In this document: one piece after another, positions 44,577 through 54,804 of the stretch | How positions within the stretch are numbered: position 1 is the first letter of the stretch | Layout of the letters: the number at the start of each line of letters is the position of its first letter | Assembly: GCF_003815675.1 (NCBI RefSeq) | Contig: NZ_CP033918.1 | Coordinates: 4,898,001 to 4,962,000 of the forward strand | From: Chryseobacterium sp. G0186 | Lineage (GTDB): Bacteria; Bacteroidota; Bacteroidia; Flavobacteriales; Weeksellaceae | Direction of reading: 5' to 3' | Length of the DNA: 64,000 nt | Program-made: the position numbers and the translations under genes | Notes under the pieces: generated by a model | The model's database searches: none | Told to the model about the DNA's origin: nothing | What the model saw: the letters and a program-made list of their open reading frames with translations, nothing else

Positions 44577-45539
44577 TTAGAATCCGCAATGTGCTGTACT
44601 AGGTACCGGAGCTGAACAACCCGAAAGAGCAGAGAATGCTGTTAACGTACAATTGGTATTTACCAGATTGTTATCATACAATAAAGATCCTGATGTGCTT
44701 CTGTAGTAAACATTCCCAGGGGTATTGGCAAAAGATGAAACAGAAGTAGAACCACAAGTTGAGTTTGTACATGCAGCTCTCCATGCAGTATCAGTAATAG
44801 GACCTGTGGAGTTTAGAGAAGGGTCAATAATTCTTTTTTCAACTACACCGGATGCATTTTTAAAGCTTACAAGGATAGCCACGTGATATACCCATGATAC
44901 ACAGCAGGTACCGGTAGAAGCTCTTAAATTGCCATATACAAATTGTTTCTCACATTCATATCCGGCATTGTTTAAGATCTGTCTCATTTTGTGAGCTCTT
45001 GCATAGCATCCGTCTACAGGATATCTGAAAGTGATACATGGAGAAGAAGCCGTAGAAGTTCCGCAAGATTGGTTTTTGATCTGAGTAAATAAACTGTTTA
45101 GGGTAGCAAGGTTAGGAATAACACTGGCTAATCTTCTTGCTACTCCGTCTTCTTTTATTTCTTTAGTGAAAGTAGTCTTAAAGAAACGGATATCTTCCGA
45201 AGTTGGGCTTTCTACCTTCGCAATTTCATTGGAATTAGCCTTAAGGAAAATATGAACCGGAGATTCATCTTTTACAGCCTGACTGATCATGGAAATGTAA
45301 GCTTTGTTTTCCTCAGTGTCTTTGATTTCGTAAGGCTGGGCTGAAAGAATAAAGGAAACTTTATATTTTCCATCTTCTTTATCGATTCCTACAGGAACAG
45401 TCCTCCCAAAGTCCTTCATGGCAACTTGTTGATTCTCTTTGGAAGTCGCATTTGAGTCTTGATTCGCATTAGAATCTGAACAGGCATTAAATGACAATGC
45501 TGCCACAAATACCATCATTGATAACAGAAATTTTTTCAT
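44577..45539 (-). CDS. Protein-glutamine glutaminase (protein deamidase) precursor
   Basis: A 320-residue prepro-enzyme that deamidates glutamine side chains in proteins, closely like the Chryseobacterium proteolyticum enzyme. A signal with Cys20 (LSFNACSDS), then a propeptide, then the mature part starting LASVIPNLATLNSLF after Arg136. The catalytic triad matches: Cys178 in VDGCYARAHK, His219 in WVYHVAIL and Asp239 in RIIDPSL (mature 42, 83, 103). Many cysteines indicate disulfides. The propeptide should block the active site until it is removed outside the cell. The unusual feature is the lipobox-like Cys20 in the signal region. Confidence 0.95.
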   Translation of the reverse strand: MKKFLLSMMVFVAALSFNACSDSNANQDSNATSKENQQVAMKDFGRTVPVGIDKEDGKYKVSFILSAQPYEIKDTEENKAYISMISQAVKDESPVHIFLKANSNEIAKVESPTSEDIRFFKTTFTKEIKEDGVARRLASVIPNLATLNSLFTQIKNQSCGTSTASSPCITFRYPVDGCYARAHKMRQILNNAGYECEKQFVYGNLRASTGTCCVSWVYHVAILVSFKNASGVVEKRIIDPSLNSTGPITDTAWRAACTNSTCGSTSVSSFANTPGNVYYRSTSGSLLYDNNLVNTNCTLTAFSALSGCSAPVPSTAHCGF

Positions 45540-46604: not shown

Positions 46605-47339
46605 TTAAGCTTTTATAGAATGGATAAAATCTATGGCATTCTTCTTCCAATCTTTATCCTGAAGCAAGACATTCACAAAGGCTGTTCCGATGATTCCTCC
46701 ATCTGCTTTCTCAGTTACATTTTCAAAGTCATCCTTTGATTTTATCCCGAAACCAATCATTACAGGGTTCTTTAAAGGTAAACCAGCCAGTCTTGCCAGA
46801 TAGTTCTCGTTCTTCAGTACGGCATTTTCGTTACCTGTTGTTGAAGATGAACTTACAGCATAGAGAAATCCTGAACTTAAAGAGTCAAGGTATTGTATTC
46901 TTTCATCTGATGTTTCCGGAGTAACCAGAAACGTAAAGTTGAGGTTGTATTGCTTTAAAATAGGCTGATAGTTTTTTTCAAATTCAATAGGAGGAAGATC
47001 CGGAAGAATAAGCCCGGAAACACCACTTTCTGAACATTCCTTACAAAACTTTTCAAAGCCAAAGCTTAAAACAGGATTGATATATCCCATCAAAATAATT
47101 GGAACCCTTATTTCATTTTTGATGGATTTTAACTGGGAGAAAAGCTTTTCAATGGTCATCCCATTTTGTAAAGCCAGTTCGTGTGCTTTCTGAATAACAG
47201 GTCCGTCTGCTACCGGATCAGAATAAGGCATTCCGATTTCAATCATATCCGCACCGGAATCCTGAATCAGTTGTATAATGGCTGCGGTATCTTCCAGTTG
47301 TGGAATTCCTGCAGTGAAATATATATTTAGTTTTTTCAT
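46605..47339 (-). CDS. trpA: Tryptophan synthase alpha subunit
   Basis: A 244-residue TIM barrel that splits indole-3-glycerol phosphate into indole and glyceraldehyde 3-phosphate. Conserved motifs are YFTAGIPQLEDTAAIIQLI and GADMIEIGMPYSDPVADGPVIQKAHELAL (catalytic Glu and Asp regions). The phosphate site MIGFGIKSKDDFENV is near 194. The length is at the short end for TrpA. It is separated from trpB by a 124-base spacer with inverted repeats, unusual inside this operon. Confidence 0.95.
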   Translation of the reverse strand: MKKLNIYFTAGIPQLEDTAAIIQLIQDSGADMIEIGMPYSDPVADGPVIQKAHELALQNGMTIEKLFSQLKSIKNEIRVPIILMGYINPVLSFGFEKFCKECSESGVSGLILPDLPPIEFEKNYQPILKQYNLNFTFLVTPETSDERIQYLDSLSSGFLYAVSSSSTTGNENAVLKNENYLARLAGLPLKNPVMIGFGIKSKDDFENVTEKADGGIIGTAFVNVLLQDKDWKKNAIDFIHSIKA

Positions 47340-47463: not shown

Positions 47464-48642
47464 TTACAAATTCTTCAGATACGTTTCCATATCCTTATCT
47501 CCACGACCGCTCAGACAAATGACAACAATATCGTCTTCTTTAAATTTCTTTTTATCTAAGACCGCCAGGGCATGGGAGCTTTCCAGAGCCGGGATAATTC
47601 CTTCCAGTTTTGTTAAATCAAAGGCACATTTTAAAGCTTCATCATCATTGATACTGAAAAATTCTGCTCTTTTTTCCTTAAATAAATGAGCATGAAAGGG
47701 TCCGATTCCCGGATAATCCAGGCCTGCAGAAATAGAGTGCGGCTCAATGACCTGTCCGTCCGAAGTTTGCATCACAAGGCTTTTGCTTCCGTGAAGTACG
47801 CCGAGTGTTCCAAGAAATGTGGTAGCAGCAGATTTTCCGGATTCAACGCCCAGACCACCCGCCTCAGCAGCAATAATCTTCACTTCTTTTTCATTAACGA
47901 AATGATAGAATGTTCCCGCAGCATTGCTTCCTCCGCCTACGCAGGCAATCACATAATCCGGATTTTCTCTTCCGACTTTCTCATGAAGCTGTTCTCTGAT
48001 TTCCTTTGAAATGATGCTTTGAAACCTTGCAACAAGATCAGGGAAAGGATGAGGTCCTACCACACTCCCAATCACATAATGAGTGGTCACAGGATTGTTG
48101 ATCCAGTCTCTTAAAGCTTCATTTACGGCATCTTTCAATGTTTTTGAACCTGAGGTAGCCGGAATCACTTCGGCACCTAACATTTTCATTCTTGCCACAT
48201 TTGGGGCTTGTCTCTGAATATCAATTTCACCCATGTAGACAATACACTCAAGGCCAAGCAAGGCACAGGCTGTAGCGGTGGCAACACCATGCTGTCCGGC
48301 TCCGGTTTCAGCAATGATCCTCGTTTTTCCAAGACGCTTTGCAAGGAGAACCTGCCCCAATGCATTATTTATTTTATGAGCTCCGGTATGGTTAAGATCT
48401 TCTCTTTTTAAATAAATCCGGGTTTTGTATTTCTCGCTCAGATTCTTGGCAAAATAAAGTGGAGTAGCTCTTCCTACATAGTTGGTAAGCAAATCCTGAT
48501 ATTCACTTTGGAATTCTTCAGATTCTATGATCTCAAGATAGTTTTTTTGTAATTCTTCTACATTCGGATAGAGCATTTCCGGGATGAAAGCACCTCCAAA
48601 TTCTCCATAATATCCGTTTTCATCGGGGTTTTTATAATTCAT
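47464..48642 (-). CDS. trpB: Tryptophan synthase beta subunit
   Basis: A 392-residue PLP enzyme joining indole and serine. The PLP lysine is in [24 protein letters not shown] (about 83-106). Other signatures are [14 protein letters not shown] and the phosphate loop [15 protein letters not shown]. It starts four bases after the GNAT gene and is translated in the trp operon. Confidence 0.96.
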
Positions 48643-48646
48643 TTCT

Positions 48647-49192
48647 TTATTCTTTAGTAATTAAGTAAGCGTTATTTTTTGTACTCAGCTGATTGAGCAT
48701 CTTTTTCTTTTCGTCTGATGTGTTGAAAACTAAAATATCATCATCTTCAGCGTTGATCCATTCAGATCCCATATTTTCCTTGATCATTTTAGCCTTGTTA
48801 TAAAGGATTTCAATCTCACATTTTTCATAGAAAGGGCGAAGTTCGGAATGACAAAAGCCAATGGTTTCAAGATTTCTTCTCTTAACATTCTCTGTAAAGT
48901 ACTGAACCAATTTTGCTCCGTATCCCTTTTTTCTGTGGGCAGCGACAAGTCCTGCGGCTTCGGCAAAAGAATGTTTTTCTTCAATAATCCTCAGGGTAAA
49001 ATCAAAATTAACCCTCATAATGGCTAATATGGCCTCCTCTTCATCTAATAGAAAATGAAATTCCGAGTCTTTAAAAAAAGTACGGAAATAAGCAGGTTTC
49101 ATTGTATTCCATTCAGAAATATCCCAAAGCTTTATGATTTGTTCTATTTCCGTTTCTTTTAATTCGTTGGGTTGTTTTATTTGGTATTTCAT
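48647..49192 (-). CDS. GNAT-family N-acetyltransferase inside the trp operon
   Basis: About 181 residues from the ATG at 49192 ([20 protein letters not shown]); an ATG three codons upstream (49201) is possible. The acetyl-CoA-binding motif A reads [21 protein letters not shown] (about 87-107). The substrate is unknown. It is inserted between trpF and trpB with a gap of only four bases to trpB, so it is coexpressed with the tryptophan genes. Confidence 0.83.
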
Positions 49193-49231
49193 ATGAATCA
49201 AAGTTAATGAAGAGTTCCAAAGGATCTGAGT

Positions 49232-49936
49232 TTAAATAGCCCCGTTAGGACTTTTTTGGATGGTGGAACTGAATTTTTTAATTCTTTCTATATCCTTATC
49301 ACCGGGATTAATTTCAAATTTTGAATTAATGTCAATGGCAAACGGCTTTTGAATTAACGACTGAATATTTGTTATATTTTCTTCTGAAATGCCACCACTC
49401 AGAAAATAAGGTAATGGAATTTCAAATTCGTTCAATAAATTCCAGTCAAACTGTTGTCCTGTTCCTCCAAATGCTTTGCTGTCAGTATCAAACAGGTAGT
49501 AGGTAACAGGCGGTAGGTTGTAGCTTGTCGACTGGTCATTAAGAATCTGGGTTATTTTATTTCTGTTTTCAGTAGTATCATTTCCGATTCTGATGACCTT
49601 GATGATTTTAATTTCCGGGTTTAATTTTTTTCTTAAATCAGCCATAAAATCTTCACTTTCATCACCATGTAACTGAATCAGATTAAGCTTCCCTTTTTCA
49701 GCTACTTCGATAATTTTTTCAGTTATTTCATTCACAAAAACACCAACTTTTCCCTGATGATCAACTTTTGAAATATCATCAAGACTTAAATGATTCAATA
49801 CATATCTTGGTGATTTTTCATAGAAAATGAAGCCAAGAAAATCTACTTTCATGGTCATCAATTCCTGAATTTGTTCAGTTTTTGTTAAACCACAGACTTT
49901 AAGGGAAAGATTGCTATATGCTGGTTGTGGGTTCAT
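49232..49936 (-). CDS. trpF: Phosphoribosylanthranilate isomerase
   Basis: A 234-residue TIM barrel. The catalytic Cys is in LKVCGLTKTEQIQEL (about 12-26) and the Asp in LFDTDSKAFGGTGQQFDW (about 146-163). FLSGGISEENI is the phosphate-binding loop. It performs the Amadori step of tryptophan synthesis. It lies 44 bases downstream of trpC. Confidence 0.94.
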   Translation of the reverse strand: MNPQPAYSNLSLKVCGLTKTEQIQELMTMKVDFLGFIFYEKSPRYVLNHLSLDDISKVDHQGKVGVFVNEITEKIIEVAEKGKLNLIQLHGDESEDFMADLRKKLNPEIKIIKVIRIGNDTTENRNKITQILNDQSTSYNLPPVTYYLFDTDSKAFGGTGQQFDWNLLNEFEIPLPYFLSGGISEENITNIQSLIQKPFAIDINSKFEINPGDKDIERIKKFSSTIQKSPNGAI

Positions 49937-49980: not shown

Positions 49981-50754
49981 TTAGATTGTTAAAGAAAAAT
50001 CCTCAAATGCCTTTGCCGGATCTGCATTCCTCATAAAATATTCTCCCATCAGAAAACCATCAAATCCTTTTTCTTTTAAGTATTTAAAATCTTCTATTGT
50101 ATAAATTCCGCTTTCTGCAACAGATAATGTGTCTTTGGGAAGCTGATCTTTTAATTGTACAGAATGCTGTAAATCGACCTTGAAGTCTTTTAGATTCCTG
50201 TTATTAATTCCAACCAGATCAATTTTTGTATTACAATGCTTCAATTCTTCTTCGGTATGAATTTCCAGTAAAACCTCCATATTCAAGGCATGGGCCAATT
50301 CTGTGAATTCTTGAACCTGACTGGGTGAAAGACAGGCTGCAATTAGTAAAATTACATCGGCGCCAATGCTTTTTGCCTCATAAAACTGGTATTCATCAAT
50401 CATAAAATCCTTTCTCAGAATCGGAATATTGATGTGACTTCTTACATTCAGAATATCATCAAAGCTTCCTCCAAAAAAATCCTTATCTGTTAAAATGGAA
50501 ATTCCACTGGCTCCAAACTTTTCATAGGCAGAAGTTACGTCCAAAGGATTAACACTGTTATTGATAATTCCTTTTGATGGTGATTGTCTTTTGAATTCAG
50601 CGATGATACCACTTCCATTTTTGATGGAGTCTTTCAGAGACTGGCTTTTTCTTTCAAAAAATTCAGAATCTTTCAATTGTTCAATAGAAATTCTGGATTT
50701 TGAAGCTGTAATTTCTTCTTTTTTTCTTTCAATAATTGTATCTAATATGGTCAT
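49981..50754 (-). CDS. trpC: Indole-3-glycerol phosphate synthase
   Basis: A 257-residue TIM barrel, not fused to TrpF. Signatures are IIAEFKRQSPSKGIIN (about 49-64), ILTDKDFFGGSFDDI, IPILRKDFMIDEYQFYEAKSIGADVILLI and LVGINNRNLKDFKVD. AESGIYTIEDF and FLMGEYFMR complete the phosphate site. It catalyses ring closure with decarboxylation. Confidence 0.95.
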   Translation of the reverse strand: MTILDTIIERKKEEITASKSRISIEQLKDSEFFERKSQSLKDSIKNGSGIIAEFKRQSPSKGIINNSVNPLDVTSAYEKFGASGISILTDKDFFGGSFDDILNVRSHINIPILRKDFMIDEYQFYEAKSIGADVILLIAACLSPSQVQEFTELAHALNMEVLLEIHTEEELKHCNTKIDLVGINNRNLKDFKVDLQHSVQLKDQLPKDTLSVAESGIYTIEDFKYLKEKGFDGFLMGEYFMRNADPAKAFEDFSLTI

Positions 50755-50799: not shown

Positions 50800-51831
50800 T
50801 TAATTAATAAGAAGTTCTAATGCTTTTAATGCTTTTCCACTTTCAAGGCTGTCTTTCGCCAGGAGAAGACAATCATCATAGGTTCCAAACTTGTGGGTAT
50901 GGTAAAGCGCTACAGCGGCGTTGGCCAACACCACAGAATTCTGTTGCTCAGTTCCTTTTCCTTCCAGAATATTCATAAATATCTTTGCGGTTTCCTGAAT
51001 GGTATCTCCTGCCTTAATATCTTCAAGGGTTACAGGATTGAAACCTAAATCTTCTGCAGAATAGATTTCCTCTCCTTTTTTGGTGATGATCTTGCTGTCA
51101 TGGGTAAGGCTGATCTCATCATAACCATCCAGTCCGTGAACAAGAATAAACTCTTTTTCTTCTTTTTGCAGAAAGTATTGATAGATTCTTGCGATTTCCA
51201 GATTGTAAACACCAATCATTGAGTACTGAGGTTTTGCAGGGTTTACCAATGGTCCCAGAAGATTAAAAAAGGTTCTTAACCCCAAAGATTTTCTCAATAA
51301 ACCAACAGACTGAAGGGCAGGGTGGAAGTAAGGAGCATGCAAAAAGCAGATATTGGCTCTCTCAAGATCTTCATTTAGCTGTTCTGAGCTGTTTTTGAAC
51401 TGATATCCCAATTCTTCCAGCACATTGGATGAGCCTGTAGTGGTTGAAGCCCCATAATTTCCATGTTTTGTTACTTTCTGCCCGGCTCCGGCCACCACAA
51501 AGCTTGCCAATGTTGATATATTGATTGTGTTTTTTCCGTCACCTCCTGTTCCTACAATATCAATGGCATCACTGGCATCAATATTTACAGGGACAGCCAT
51601 CTGTAATAAGGCTTCTCTGAACCCTTCCAATTCCTTCAATGTGATATTTCGCATCAGAAAAACACTGATAAAAGCGGTTACTTCTGCGGCATTGAACTTA
51701 TTTTGGGCAATCTCAATCATCATCGCCTTTGCCTCAGGTTTTGATAAGGTGTGATGATTAAACAGGTATTGCAGTATTTCTTTCATTTGAGGAGTTTTTA
51801 TTGTTGAGGGATTTTGAATTACTGTTGTCAT
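50800..51831 (-). CDS. trpD: Anthranilate phosphoribosyltransferase
   Basis: A 343-residue protein with the phosphoribosyl-binding motif VGTGGDGKNTINISTLASFVVAGAGQKVTKHGNYGASTTTGSSNVLEELG (about 91-140). RTFFNLLGPLVNPAKP is also conserved. It joins anthranilate to PRPP. It begins two bases after trpG and is a separate gene from it. Confidence 0.95.
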   Translation of the reverse strand: MTTVIQNPSTIKTPQMKEILQYLFNHHTLSKPEAKAMMIEIAQNKFNAAEVTAFISVFLMRNITLKELEGFREALLQMAVPVNIDASDAIDIVGTGGDGKNTINISTLASFVVAGAGQKVTKHGNYGASTTTGSSNVLEELGYQFKNSSEQLNEDLERANICFLHAPYFHPALQSVGLLRKSLGLRTFFNLLGPLVNPAKPQYSMIGVYNLEIARIYQYFLQKEEKEFILVHGLDGYDEISLTHDSKIITKKGEEIYSAEDLGFNPVTLEDIKAGDTIQETAKIFMNILEGKGTEQQNSVVLANAAVALYHTHKFGTYDDCLLLAKDSLESGKALKALELLIN

Positions 51832-51833
51832 TT

Positions 51834-52442
51834 CTAATGATTTAAAAAGTTTCGGATAATCACTTCTCCATCAGGGGTCAAAATGCTTTCAGGGTGAAAC
51901 TGTACTCCGTGTACATCATATGTCTTGTGTTGCAGAGCCATGATCATTCCGTCTTTATCTACTGCTGTAATCTCCAGTTCCTCCGGGAAATTTACAGGAT
52001 TAACAGCCCAGCTGTGATATCTTCCGACTTCCAAACCTGATGTTAGGTTTTTGAAAATCTTGGTATTTTCTTTTACCAACTCAGTAGTGGTAGCTACTCC
52101 ATGAAAAATTTCAGACAGATTGATAAGGTTTCCGCCAAAAGCCTCTGCGATGGCCTGCTGACCTAAACATACCCCCAGAATACTTTTAGTAGGCGCATAT
52201 TCTTTAATCAGATCCAGTAAAATTCCCGCTTCTTCAGGAATTCCCGGACCGGGAGAAAGGATAATCTTATCATATTTTCCGATTTCTTCCAGGGTAATTT
52301 GATCATTTCTTACCACATCCACTCTTTGGTTAAGGATTCTTTCGATGATCTGAACCAAGTTATAGGTAAAACTGTCGTAGTTATCGAAAACAAGAACTTT
52401 AAGAGGCTGATTATCGGTTGCAGGTGTTATATTGTTGTTCAT
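51834..52442 (-). CDS. trpG: Anthranilate synthase component II (glutamine amidotransferase)
   Basis: A 202-residue class I amidotransferase: VFDNYDSFTYNLVQIIE, the nucleophile loop GVCLGQQAIAEAFGG (Cys about 95) and HGVQFHPESILTPDG (His, Glu). It supplies ammonia to TrpE. It starts 41 bases after trpE. Confidence 0.95.
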   Translation of the reverse strand: MNNNITPATDNQPLKVLVFDNYDSFTYNLVQIIERILNQRVDVVRNDQITLEEIGKYDKIILSPGPGIPEEAGILLDLIKEYAPTKSILGVCLGQQAIAEAFGGNLINLSEIFHGVATTTELVKENTKIFKNLTSGLEVGRYHSWAVNPVNFPEELEITAVDKDGMIMALQHKTYDVHGVQFHPESILTPDGEVIIRNFLNH

Positions 52443-52483: not shown

Positions 52484-53908
52484 CTAATCCTGAACGATTT
52501 TTTCTGCTTTTTCAACAGCTTTTTTCAGGGCGTTCAGTTTATTGTTTACCTCCTGCAGTTCATTTTCAGGGATAGATTTTGCTACAATACCAGCTCCTGC
52601 CTGATAATAAAGTGTATTGTTTTTACTTAAAAAGGTTCTGATCATAATAGCCTGATTACAGCTTCCGTTTAAACCAACCATCCCGATACATCCTCCATAA
52701 TATCCACGGGAATCTTTCTCATATTGGTTAATCAGTTGAAGTGCTTTGTGCTTAGGCGCTCCGCTTAGGGTCCCCTGAGGAAAAGTTGCTGAAATCATTT
52801 CCAGAGGATTAATCTGTTCAGGGAGATCAGCTGTTACCTCACTTACCATATGGATTACGTGGGAGAAAAGCTGAATTTCCTTAAGCTTCGTAACGGTTAC
52901 ATTTTTTCCCAACTTTCCAAGATCATTGCGGGCAAGGTCTACCAGCATGGTATGTTCTGCATTTTCTTTTGGGTCTTTTTTTAACTCTTCAATAGCCTGA
53001 AGATCGATATCCAGATTTCCCGTTCTTTTTGAAGTCCCGGCAATAGGATGGATAATGGCTTTATGATCTTTAATGATGAGCTGACTTTCAGGGCTGGATC
53101 CAAATAATTTGTAGTTTCCGTAATCAAAATAAAACAGGTAAGGGGAGGGGTTGATATTTCTTAAAGCACGATAAACATTAAATTCATCTCCTTTGAATTT
53201 CTGTTCAAATCTTCGGCTCAGTACCAGTTGAAATACATCACCTCTCATGCAGTGCTTTTGGGCTGTTTTAACCAGTTCAATATATTCTTCATCAGTAATA
53301 TTGGAGGTTTCTTCACTGTTTTTTTCAAAAGGATAAACCGGAGTATTCTGATTTTTGATGAGGTTTTCCAGAAGATGCAGTTCAGATTTCACTCCGCTTA
53401 TTTGGTTTTCAATAATGTGCATTTCATCATTGAAATGATTGATGGCAATAACGTATTGGTACAATCTGTATCTGAGAATAGGAATTTCCACTTCCGGGCT
53501 TTGTGCCTTAAAATTGACGCTTTCAAAAAATTGTACCGCTTCAAAGCTTGTATATCCAAAAAGACTCTGAGCGGTCTGTTCAATAGGATCATTGGTCTTT
53601 TCGCAGTCAAAAACAGTACGGAATTCTTCAAAAATATCTGTGATTTCACGTTCTTTGATCAATTGTTTTACCGGAGCTGACTCAGGAAGCTTGATTTCAA
53701 ATTCATTTAAATTTTTCACTTCAATTCCGGCAATGGCATTGATGGCAATAAAGGAAAAATTATTATCAATACTTTTTGAATCTGAACTTTCCAGAAGAAT
53801 GGTATCCCTGAATTTGTCCCGTATCTTAAGGTAAATATTCATAGGAGTATGAAGATCTCCCAGTGTTTTTTTCGAAACGGTTTTTATTTTAATTTTTTGA
53901 GTAAACAT
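52484..53908 (-). CDS. trpE: Anthranilate synthase component I
   Basis: A 474-residue chorismate-utilising enzyme. The N-terminal part holds the feedback element LLESSDSKSIDNNFSFIAI, whose LLES motif is linked to tryptophan inhibition in other TrpE proteins. The catalytic domain has FQLVLSRRFEQKF, SPSPYLFYF-type NPSPYLFYFDYG, HPIAGTSKRTG, KENAEHTMLVDLARNDLGK and FPQGTLSGAPKHKAL. It is the first structural gene of the operon, 34 bases downstream of the attenuator terminator. Confidence 0.95.
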   Translation of the reverse strand: MFTQKIKIKTVSKKTLGDLHTPMNIYLKIRDKFRDTILLESSDSKSIDNNFSFIAINAIAGIEVKNLNEFEIKLPESAPVKQLIKEREITDIFEEFRTVFDCEKTNDPIEQTAQSLFGYTSFEAVQFFESVNFKAQSPEVEIPILRYRLYQYVIAINHFNDEMHIIENQISGVKSELHLLENLIKNQNTPVYPFEKNSEETSNITDEEYIELVKTAQKHCMRGDVFQLVLSRRFEQKFKGDEFNVYRALRNINPSPYLFYFDYGNYKLFGSSPESQLIIKDHKAIIHPIAGTSKRTGNLDIDLQAIEELKKDPKENAEHTMLVDLARNDLGKLGKNVTVTKLKEIQLFSHVIHMVSEVTADLPEQINPLEMISATFPQGTLSGAPKHKALQLINQYEKDSRGYYGGCIGMVGLNGSCNQAIMIRTFLSKNNTLYYQAGAGIVAKSIPENELQEVNNKLNALKKAVEKAEKIVQD

Positions 53909-53941
53909 CTTTTGTTCTATTTTTTTGTAAGGTTTAGGAAT

Positions 53942-53975
53942 AAAAAAAGGCTTTAACGGAATCCGTCAAAGCCTA
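53942..53975 (-). terminator. trp attenuator terminator
   Basis: On the minus strand AGGCTTTGACGG, loop ATT, CCGTTAAAGCCT, then seven T. It lies between the Trp-rich leader peptide and trpE, so it should end transcription when tryptophan is plentiful. Confidence 0.88.
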
Positions 53976-54006
53976 GTATATTGTTTTGTGTGTATCTGCT
54001 GTTGGG

Positions 54007-54084
54007 TTAACAACATGACAATAACTTCAGACCCGACGAAGAGTTTGAAAGCCACCACCAAATATTGTTGCTATTATTAAACAT
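54007..54084 (-). CDS. trpL: trp leader peptide with three consecutive Trp codons
   Basis: A 25-codon frame starting ATG at 54084 and ending TAA at 54009-54007; peptide starts MFNNSNNIWWWLSNSSSG. Codons 9-11 (54060-54052) are TGG TGG TGG. An intrinsic terminator follows 31 bases after the stop and trpE 34 bases after that. This is the layout of classic ribosome-mediated attenuation: a ribosome stalled on the Trp codons would let an antiterminator form. By hand, TTCGTCGGG in the leader (54040-54032) can pair with part of the terminator's 5' arm (TTTGACGGA). That fold is a hypothesis. Confidence 0.85.
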   Translation of the reverse strand: MFNNSNNIWWWLSNSSSGLKLLSCC

Positions 54085-54088
54085 GGGA

Positions 54089-54120
54089 CAAATGTAGAGA
54101 TTTTTTTAATACGAAAACAA
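54089..54120 (-). promoter_or_regulatory. trp operon promoter, possibly giving a leaderless transcript
   Basis: Minus strand -33 TTG (54120-54118), 21 bases, -7 box TACATTTG (54096-54089, consensus TAnnTTTG). Only four bases separate the box from the trpL ATG, so transcription would begin at or very near the start codon. Confidence 0.65.
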
Positions 54121-54159
54121 AAAAAATAAAAAAATAATAAAAACTTATTTTGAGATGTA

Positions 54160-54804
54160 TTACTTCAGCTGCTTGAGTTCCTTTTTCAATTCTTCAATCT
54201 TCAATCTGGAGTTCTCATCCTCATATGAATCTACATAATCTTCCAGAGCTGAGATGTATTCCTCAATAAATTCCCTGTTGGTTTTGTCCGCTTCATACTT
54301 AATTCTTGCAGAATTAACAGGGGCTAGTTTTGAGTATTTTAAGGCTGCCTTTCCCTCATCTGAGCGGTTGTAAAGAATGACAATATTTTTTTCATATCCA
54401 GGAATGTATTTTACAGGAAAAGTCTGTTCTGTTTGTGGAATTCTGATGGTATTTTCAATCGGATAAATGGCAGCAGTAGTGGTAGAGAAAAAGGTAGAAA
54501 TGTATTTTCCATCCTGCTTTTTTACAATGGCTTCATAGTCATGAATGTACATGTCGTTGAATGTAGAGTTGGTTTCCACATCAGAGGTGATGACTGCAGT
54601 GCTTTCTACGCCGTAGGTATTCAGAAACCAGGCATTCAAAAATTGCCCGCCAAAACCATTTACAATAGCCAGGGGAATGATGGGAATCAGAAACCATGCT
54701 TTTTTAGTGAGGTACGATAATAATCCAAAGAATATAAAGAGAAGTATCAAAGTATAAAAACCATGATGACTGGTGAAAAACAGAATTTTAGAAAGTAAAA
54801 TCAT
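54160..54804 (-). CDS. Hypothetical membrane protein
   Basis: A 214-residue protein with two N-terminal membrane segments (about 15-32 and 36-55), then an extracytoplasmic or cytoplasmic beta-rich domain (ESTAVITSDVETNSTFNDMYIHDYEAIVKKQDGKYISTFFSTT). The C-terminus is a charged helix likely to form a coiled coil (SRLKIEELKKELKQLK). The middle domain resembles DUF3592-type modules only loosely. It precedes the trp leader on the same strand. Confidence 0.65.
   Translation of the reverse strand: MILLSKILFFTSHHGFYTLILLFIFFGLLSYLTKKAWFLIPIIPLAIVNGFGGQFLNAWFLNTYGVESTAVITSDVETNSTFNDMYIHDYEAIVKKQDGKYISTFFSTTTAAIYPIENTIRIPQTEQTFPVKYIPGYEKNIVILYNRSDEGKAALKYSKLAPVNSARIKYEADKTNREFIEEYISALEDYVDSYEDENSRLKIEELKKELKQLK

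Follow-up and report, generated by a model that had tools for sequence, protein, structure and literature searches.

Attenuation of transcription requires a ribosome that follows close behind RNA polymerase. Ahead of trpE in Chryseobacterium sp. G0186, a short open reading frame (ORF) with a run of Trp codons starts so near a promoter box that this coupling would begin on a 5'-terminal AUG, and it would do so in a phylum without Shine-Dalgarno sites, whose mRNAs are mostly leadered. The question raised by this locus is whether it is a ribosome-mediated trp attenuator read from a leaderless transcript. The DNA analyzed here, referred to as the window, is a stretch of 64,000 nucleotides, in which a preliminary description had placed a complete attenuation unit at 53942..54120, made up of a promoter, a 25-codon peptide with three Trp codons, a terminator with a T-run, and trpE. 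All of these elements were found, and the coordinates are right. The strand had been left unstated; the box, the ORF, the terminator, and trpE all lie on the minus strand.

The gene that would be controlled by this unit is trpE (52484..53908, minus strand), the first structural gene, encoding anthranilate synthase component I. Its best NCBIfam match, trpE_most, scored 409.7 bits, which is below the equivalog cut-off of 517.7, and its identity is therefore based on both Pfam domains, which scored above their cut-offs, and on the operon context. Among the matches listed, the nearest relatives are from Chryseobacterium, with 94% identity to C. aurantiacum. Profile searches identified the genes that follow on the minus strand as a trpG-type glutamine amidotransferase gene (51834..52442), trpD (50800..51831), trpC (49981..50754), trpF, encoding PRA isomerase (49232..49936), trpB (47464..48642), and trpA (46605..47339), with a gene for a GNAT-type acetyltransferase (48647..49201) between trpF and trpB in the same run. 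A protein with a Gln_deamidase_2 domain (PF18626, glutaminase) is encoded at 44577-45539 of the window, also on the minus strand.

The promoter element is a -7 box, TACATTTG (54089..54096, minus strand), that fits the consensus TAnnTTTG, for which both sequence and position have been published (PMC9723704, PMC6847099). As the preliminary description had noted, the box ends four bases before an ATG; the spacer, TCCC, occupies 54085..54088 on the minus strand. In Flavobacterium psychrophilum the TAnnTTTG box is reported at -12 to -5 (PMC9723704), and in Flavobacterium johnsoniae a distance of 4 or 5 nt from box to start site, with the G at -5, is given for 241 of 434 candidate promoters, those deemed probable (PMC6847099). 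Given this published spacing, the 4-nt gap predicts that +1 is the A of the ATG, at 54084. The leaderless mRNA that had been claimed for this locus thus follows, as a prediction, from published flavobacterial promoter geometry, and by box spacing the trp leader mRNA of Chryseobacterium should be leaderless, with a start codon predicted at or near the 5' end. Such mRNAs are a small class in the phylum. Leaders longer than 10 nt were reported in 87% of the transcripts from the probable promoters of F. johnsoniae (PMC6847099), leaderless mRNAs make up 5.5% in F. psychrophilum (PMC9723704), and about 3.7% of the 5' untranslated regions of Bacteroides thetaiotaomicron are shorter than 10 nt (PMC7366714). 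Shine-Dalgarno sites are absent from Bacteroidota as a rule (PMC6847099).

The ATG at 54084 opens a 25-amino-acid leader peptide, trpL (MFNNSNNIWWWLSNSSSGLKLLSCC; 54007..54084, minus strand), with a stop codon that ends at 54007. Its codons 9 to 11, at 54052..54060 on the minus strand, are three consecutive Trp codons and the predicted site of ribosome stalling, so that a short ORF carrying codons of the regulated amino acid lies ahead of the operon. A search of NCBIfam with the leader peptide gave no match. Between this ORF and trpE lies an intrinsic terminator, AGGCTTTGACGG-ATT-CCGTTAAAGCCT, with a 12-bp stem of -17.0 kcal/mol (53948..53974, minus strand), identified by terminator scan, folding, and covariation and followed by a T-run (53941..53947, minus strand). 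A scan of 1.4 kb showed no other terminator-like site, the mean for shuffled sequences being 0.7. The leader as a whole folds better than all 200 of its shuffles (z, -3.2).

Conservation was assessed in 116 loci of the genus, consisting of 36 loci (the window included) and the best 80 of 261, with some species probably present in both; these gave 97 distinct promoter-to-terminator sequences, a count from which the locus of Chryseobacterium aahli (L156) was left out. Every one of the 116 loci has a Trp-run leader before trpE. The preliminary description had proposed conservation of the Trp codons in relatives as a test, and all 97 distinct leaders of the genus have TGG TGG TGG, as do most other leaders examined. 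A hairpin precedes a T-run in all 196 leaders, and in a terminator alignment of 26 leaders 96.1% of cells were paired, with 18 double changes, a result matched by 0 of 500 shuffles.

The distance from box to start codon is also conserved. In the genus it is 4 nt at 114 of 116 loci, 113 of them with ATG and one with GTG, and 5 nt in L006. The GTG is the trpL start codon of C. aahli, at exactly the same 4 nt. In the remaining locus, L127 from Chryseobacterium sp. E1, box and ATG are 2 nt apart, and the same spacing rule would place +1 within the ATG itself; this is the sole genus leader outside the leaderless geometry. The rest of the family was represented by 74 loci from 18 other genera, 73 of which have a Trp-run leader. 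Of these 73 leaders, 52 have a gap of 4 to 6 nt, and they represent 14 of the 18 genera. L202 belongs to the 52 solely by way of a near-box ATG (gap, 5) whose reading frame continues into the leader peptide. Genera wholly without such a gap are g26 (2 leaders), g29 (3), g38 (1), and g49 (1), and partial misses occur in g42 (4/5), g28 (6/14), g45 (3/15), and g41 (1/2). In g28, the trpL ATG of L185, L190, L194, L202, L207, and L210 lies 52 to 54 nt from the box, and these leaders perhaps represent a natural change from leaderless to leadered. Counted over distinct upstream sequences, TAnnTTTG lies 4 to 6 nt ahead of the start codon in 96 of 97 for the genus, where shuffles predict 0.58, and in 49 of 70 for the rest of the family, where they predict 0.29. 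Where several in-frame ATGs were available, the one with a gap of 3 to 7 was taken, a rule that slightly biases these counts toward the leaderless reading.

Most of the order-level loci examined have a Trp-run leader ahead of trpE. Among 38 loci outside the family, gaps of 4 to 7 were found in 8 of 27 from family f3, the other 19 comprising 18 at 16 to 20 and one at 8; the 11 loci from other families, five of them without a Trp-run leader, include no leaderless type, and 8 further order-level loci include none either. Two order-level loci of family f2, L042 and L046, have two tandem Trp-run leader peptides before trpE, each with its own terminator hairpin, and to judge from their sequences these are probably tandem attenuators.

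An attenuator also needs an alternative to its terminator. The preliminary description had named none; the pairing search and the folds point to a putative antiterminator strand, UCGUCGGGUCUG, at 54028..54039 on the minus strand. These 12 nt (nt 46 to 57) lie inside the peptide ORF, about 13 nt past the last Trp codon and just outside the predicted stalled ribosome, and they can pair with the 5' arm of the terminator. A ribosome-free structure of the 1:2 type is predicted by the folds for 53987..54062 (minus strand), a region that includes the Trp codons. In the mechanism that we propose, translation would begin at the 5'-terminal AUG and, when charged tRNA-Trp is scarce, the ribosome would stall at codons 9 to 11, covering about the first 42 nt. 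Nucleotides 46 to 57 would then pair with the terminator 5' arm, and RNA polymerase would read through into trpE. With plentiful tryptophan, the ribosome would move on, nt 46 to 57 would refold with the Trp-codon region, and the terminator would form and end transcription. What is inferred in this scheme is where transcription starts, that initiation is leaderless, that the ribosome stalls, that the RNA refolds, and that the switch responds to tryptophan.

The antiterminator of the window itself is unremarkable, being equalled by 7 of 100 shuffles. Pairing reached by no more than 5 of 100 shuffles was found in 53 of 92 distinct genus leaders; elsewhere in the family the figure is 50 of 72 distinct leaders. 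Among the matches listed, the strand starts mostly at nt 43 to 50. By the same shuffle test, significant pairing was found in 0 of 14 leaders of g40, g47, and g29 together and in 0 of 1 of g49, while 1 of 5 leaders of g42 and 1 of 8 order-level loci passed. Strand and arm covary between genera, TCGTC occurring with GACG, CGCTG with CAGCG, and GCAG with CTGC. In an alignment of 26 leaders, drawn from groups in which pairing had already been found and placed in register by the predicted duplex, 88.7% of cells pair, versus at most 52.8% when the strands are slid. Both sides have changed in 11 cells, and 3 of 500 shuffles give at least that many; counted by pairs, double changes occur in 3, which is no more than shuffles give (278/500). 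An alternative antiterminator that can be reached on stalling is thus indicated by prediction and by covariation in chosen leaders, and is weak on a single sequence.

The fold of the complete leader at equilibrium contains the terminator in every state tried and so cannot discriminate between states, which were therefore compared before the terminator 3' arm is made. With nt 1 to 42 blocked, the antiterminator is favored by 10.2 kcal/mol (-20.3 versus -10.1); with no ribosome, it is favored by just 1.6 kcal/mol (-22.5 versus -20.9). The preliminary description had called for folds with and without a ribosome on the Trp codons. The stalled state does favor the antiterminator, but the antiterminator also dominates at equilibrium without a ribosome (P, 0.86) and with a ribosome at the stop codon (P, 0.90). 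In this species' folds a ribosome at the stop codon leaves the strand unmasked, because the peptide in this genus extends past it. Several other genera, some with a shorter peptide, have their stop codon inside the strand or close to it, and there a ribosome at that codon would mask the strand classically. Since the antiterminator dominates at equilibrium even without a ribosome, termination with plentiful Trp would rest on the order of folding. Equilibrium folds cannot show folding order, and the folds leave the preference for termination under these conditions unexplained.

Several other explanations of the locus were weighed. It might be an ordinary leadered trp attenuator whose transcript starts further upstream, from another promoter or by read-through, with the TACATTTG box not serving as the main promoter. 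A gene on the same strand (54160..54804, minus strand; no Pfam or NCBIfam match) lies 75 nt upstream of the leader, the scan found no terminator-like site between the two, and leadered read-through transcripts may come from it. A similar upstream gene is present at 78 of 110 genus loci tested; other genera, represented by 73 upstream pieces of about 0.6 kb, gave no such gene, yet the spacing mostly persists there. The other amino acid leaders of the genus are also leadered in their spacing. His leaders (e.g., MKPIFLALHHYYHHLC) before hisG have gaps of 16 to 20 in 12 of 12 genus genomes (L238-L249), and a gap of 17 in the genome of the window; thr leaders, Thr-rich near the end and located before a long aspartokinase gene, have gaps of 10 to 11 at 8 of 8 loci (L260-L267), and a gap of 10 in this genome; and a Lys-rich leader peptide before an aspartokinase gene of the same genome (L272; G000:C1 near 251750) has a gap of 17. 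No box 3 to 6 nt before an ATG was found in 520 nt of 12 his, 8 ilvD, 8 thr-type, and 6 lysC-type loci. These gaps of 10 to 20 agree with a leadered transcript as the custom of the genus; equally, they indicate that leaderless spacing sets trp apart from the other leaders examined and is not a general habit of attenuators in these cells. A spurious box is not expected to stay fixed at a start codon, as this one does in almost the whole genus and, at 4 to 6 nt, in most other leaders of the family, and we consider a leadered transcript unlikely. The Lys-rich peptides at L272 and L273 are MILSNLKKGKKQYLRPTS and MILSNLKKAKKQNLRRTS, respectively, and a hairpin and T-run are visible in L273; a Lys-rich leader before an aspartokinase gene is a candidate lysine attenuator.

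The locus could also be a coincidence of an A+T-rich intergenic region, in which a chance ORF precedes what is really the terminator of the upstream gene. A box, 4 nt, and an ATG do occur often by themselves: the pattern TANNTTTGNNNNATG is found 146 times in this genome, versus 89 for the reversed control. Of 30 such places fetched, 18 open ORFs of at least 86 amino acids, 10 open ORFs of at most 7, and two open ORFs of 37 and 44 (L076 and L079); the 18 long ORFs make a set of leaderless genes in this genome likely. Chance is refuted by the comparison, given the Trp-run leader at all genus loci and most order-level loci and the covariation of the terminator, and we assign it next to no probability. 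Finally, the leaderless transcript could be real while the ORF with its three Trp codons acts mainly in another way, such as a stable regulatory peptide or a terminated, trans-acting small RNA, attenuation in cis being minor. In Sinorhizobium meliloti, the peptide peTrpL and the RNA rnTrpL are reported to act in trans (PMC7298713), and in Chryseobacterium the peptide beyond the Trp codons is almost invariant within the genus, down to single codons across the antiterminator strand. RNA pairing accounts for that invariance over the strand, and between genera the peptide differs greatly, even in frame, while most genera retain the Trp codons, the antiterminator RNA, and the terminator. The motif GGGTCTG is read as SGL here and as RV-stop in some other genera, and this difference in frame indicates that conservation acts on the RNA rather than on the peptide. 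A mainly trans-acting role seems to us very improbable. The reading that we prefer, a ribosome-mediated trp attenuator whose transcript starts at or within one base of the leader-peptide AUG, is by far the most probable of these. It is supported, at the level of sequence and comparison, by the spacing from box to ATG, the Trp codons, the terminator, and an antiterminator with compensatory changes.

A family of trp leaders from Bacteroidota has been catalogued since 2010 as Rfam RF01692 (Bacteroid-trp, Bacteroidete tryptophan peptide leader RNA) (PMC2864571). The leader described here resembles it in its position before trpE, its run of Trp codons, and a terminator arm, and it is likewise a Trp-codon leader at the orthologous position before Bacteroidota trp genes. 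RF01692 was not matched by the Chryseobacterium leader, either in the window at the gathering threshold (49 bits) or in 53850-54200 at an E value of 10. Of 11 family loci tested, two reached the cut-off, and L195 was intermediate (42.7 versus 49 bits); the model thus misses many orthologous leaders, 9 of 11 in this family. Of 20 same-order loci tested, 11 scored above the cut-off, including L332, L335, and L225, which are of the leaderless type. In g40 and g29, genera that match RF01692, the antiterminator proposed here was not found. Weak Rfam matches to STnc290, Spd-sr07, and speF, below the cut-off and on the other strand, were taken as chance. Leader-peptide attenuation upstream of amino acid operons has been inferred by transcriptomics in F. 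psychrophilum, and the section on attenuation in that report names no trp case and no leaderless leader (PMC9723704). In the wider literature, taken as titles and the beginnings of abstracts with few subscription journals, no leaderless attenuator in Bacteroidota appeared among the matches listed.

The trp leader of Escherichia coli has a long 5' leader, a Shine-Dalgarno site, and two Trp codons, and works by the logic of a stalled ribosome, an antiterminator, and a terminator. Chryseobacterium trpL would share that logic and differs in its predicted leaderless mRNA. The contrast with the enterobacterial model drawn in the preliminary description is right, but the leaderless layout was already known from S. 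meliloti and Streptomyces lividans. S. meliloti is an alphaproteobacterium, and its trpL has the leaderless layout that is predicted for Chryseobacterium. The S. meliloti RNA begins with the trpL ATG, its peptide is 14 amino acids long versus 25 here, and its action in trans is documented (PMC7298713). In the actinobacterium S. lividans, trpL1 is described as leaderless, encoding MFAHSTRNWWWTAHPAAH with three consecutive Trp residues; termination before its trpE, which is monocistronic, was judged Rho independent, and leaderless transcripts account for 17% of primary start sites (PMC8079986). Several other leader peptides of S. lividans are reported to be leaderless too, whereas the his and thr leaders of Chryseobacterium are not.

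A broader proposal, which we regard as possible but doubtful, is that selection holds the trp attenuator of this family, unlike the his and thr leaders of the genus, in leaderless form. Once the 5'-terminal AUG is clear of RNA polymerase, a ribosome would load on it at once, with no need for an upstream Kozak-like A-rich context, and the switch would read both charged tRNA-Trp and the capacity for leaderless initiation; independent origin in at least three phyla would point to a shared advantage. Natural pairs exist: a single cell has a leaderless-type trp leader together with his and thr leaders that are leadered, and related genera differ in having trp leaders of one type or the other. Such pairs make the purpose of a leader-free leader peptide directly testable. 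The mechanism itself is of a known kind, leaderless trp attenuators having been reported previously in two other phyla. The apparent novelty is that, in a phylum free of Shine-Dalgarno sites, the trp leader, and not his or thr, has the leaderless form, in most genera of the family and with an antiterminator backed by covariation.
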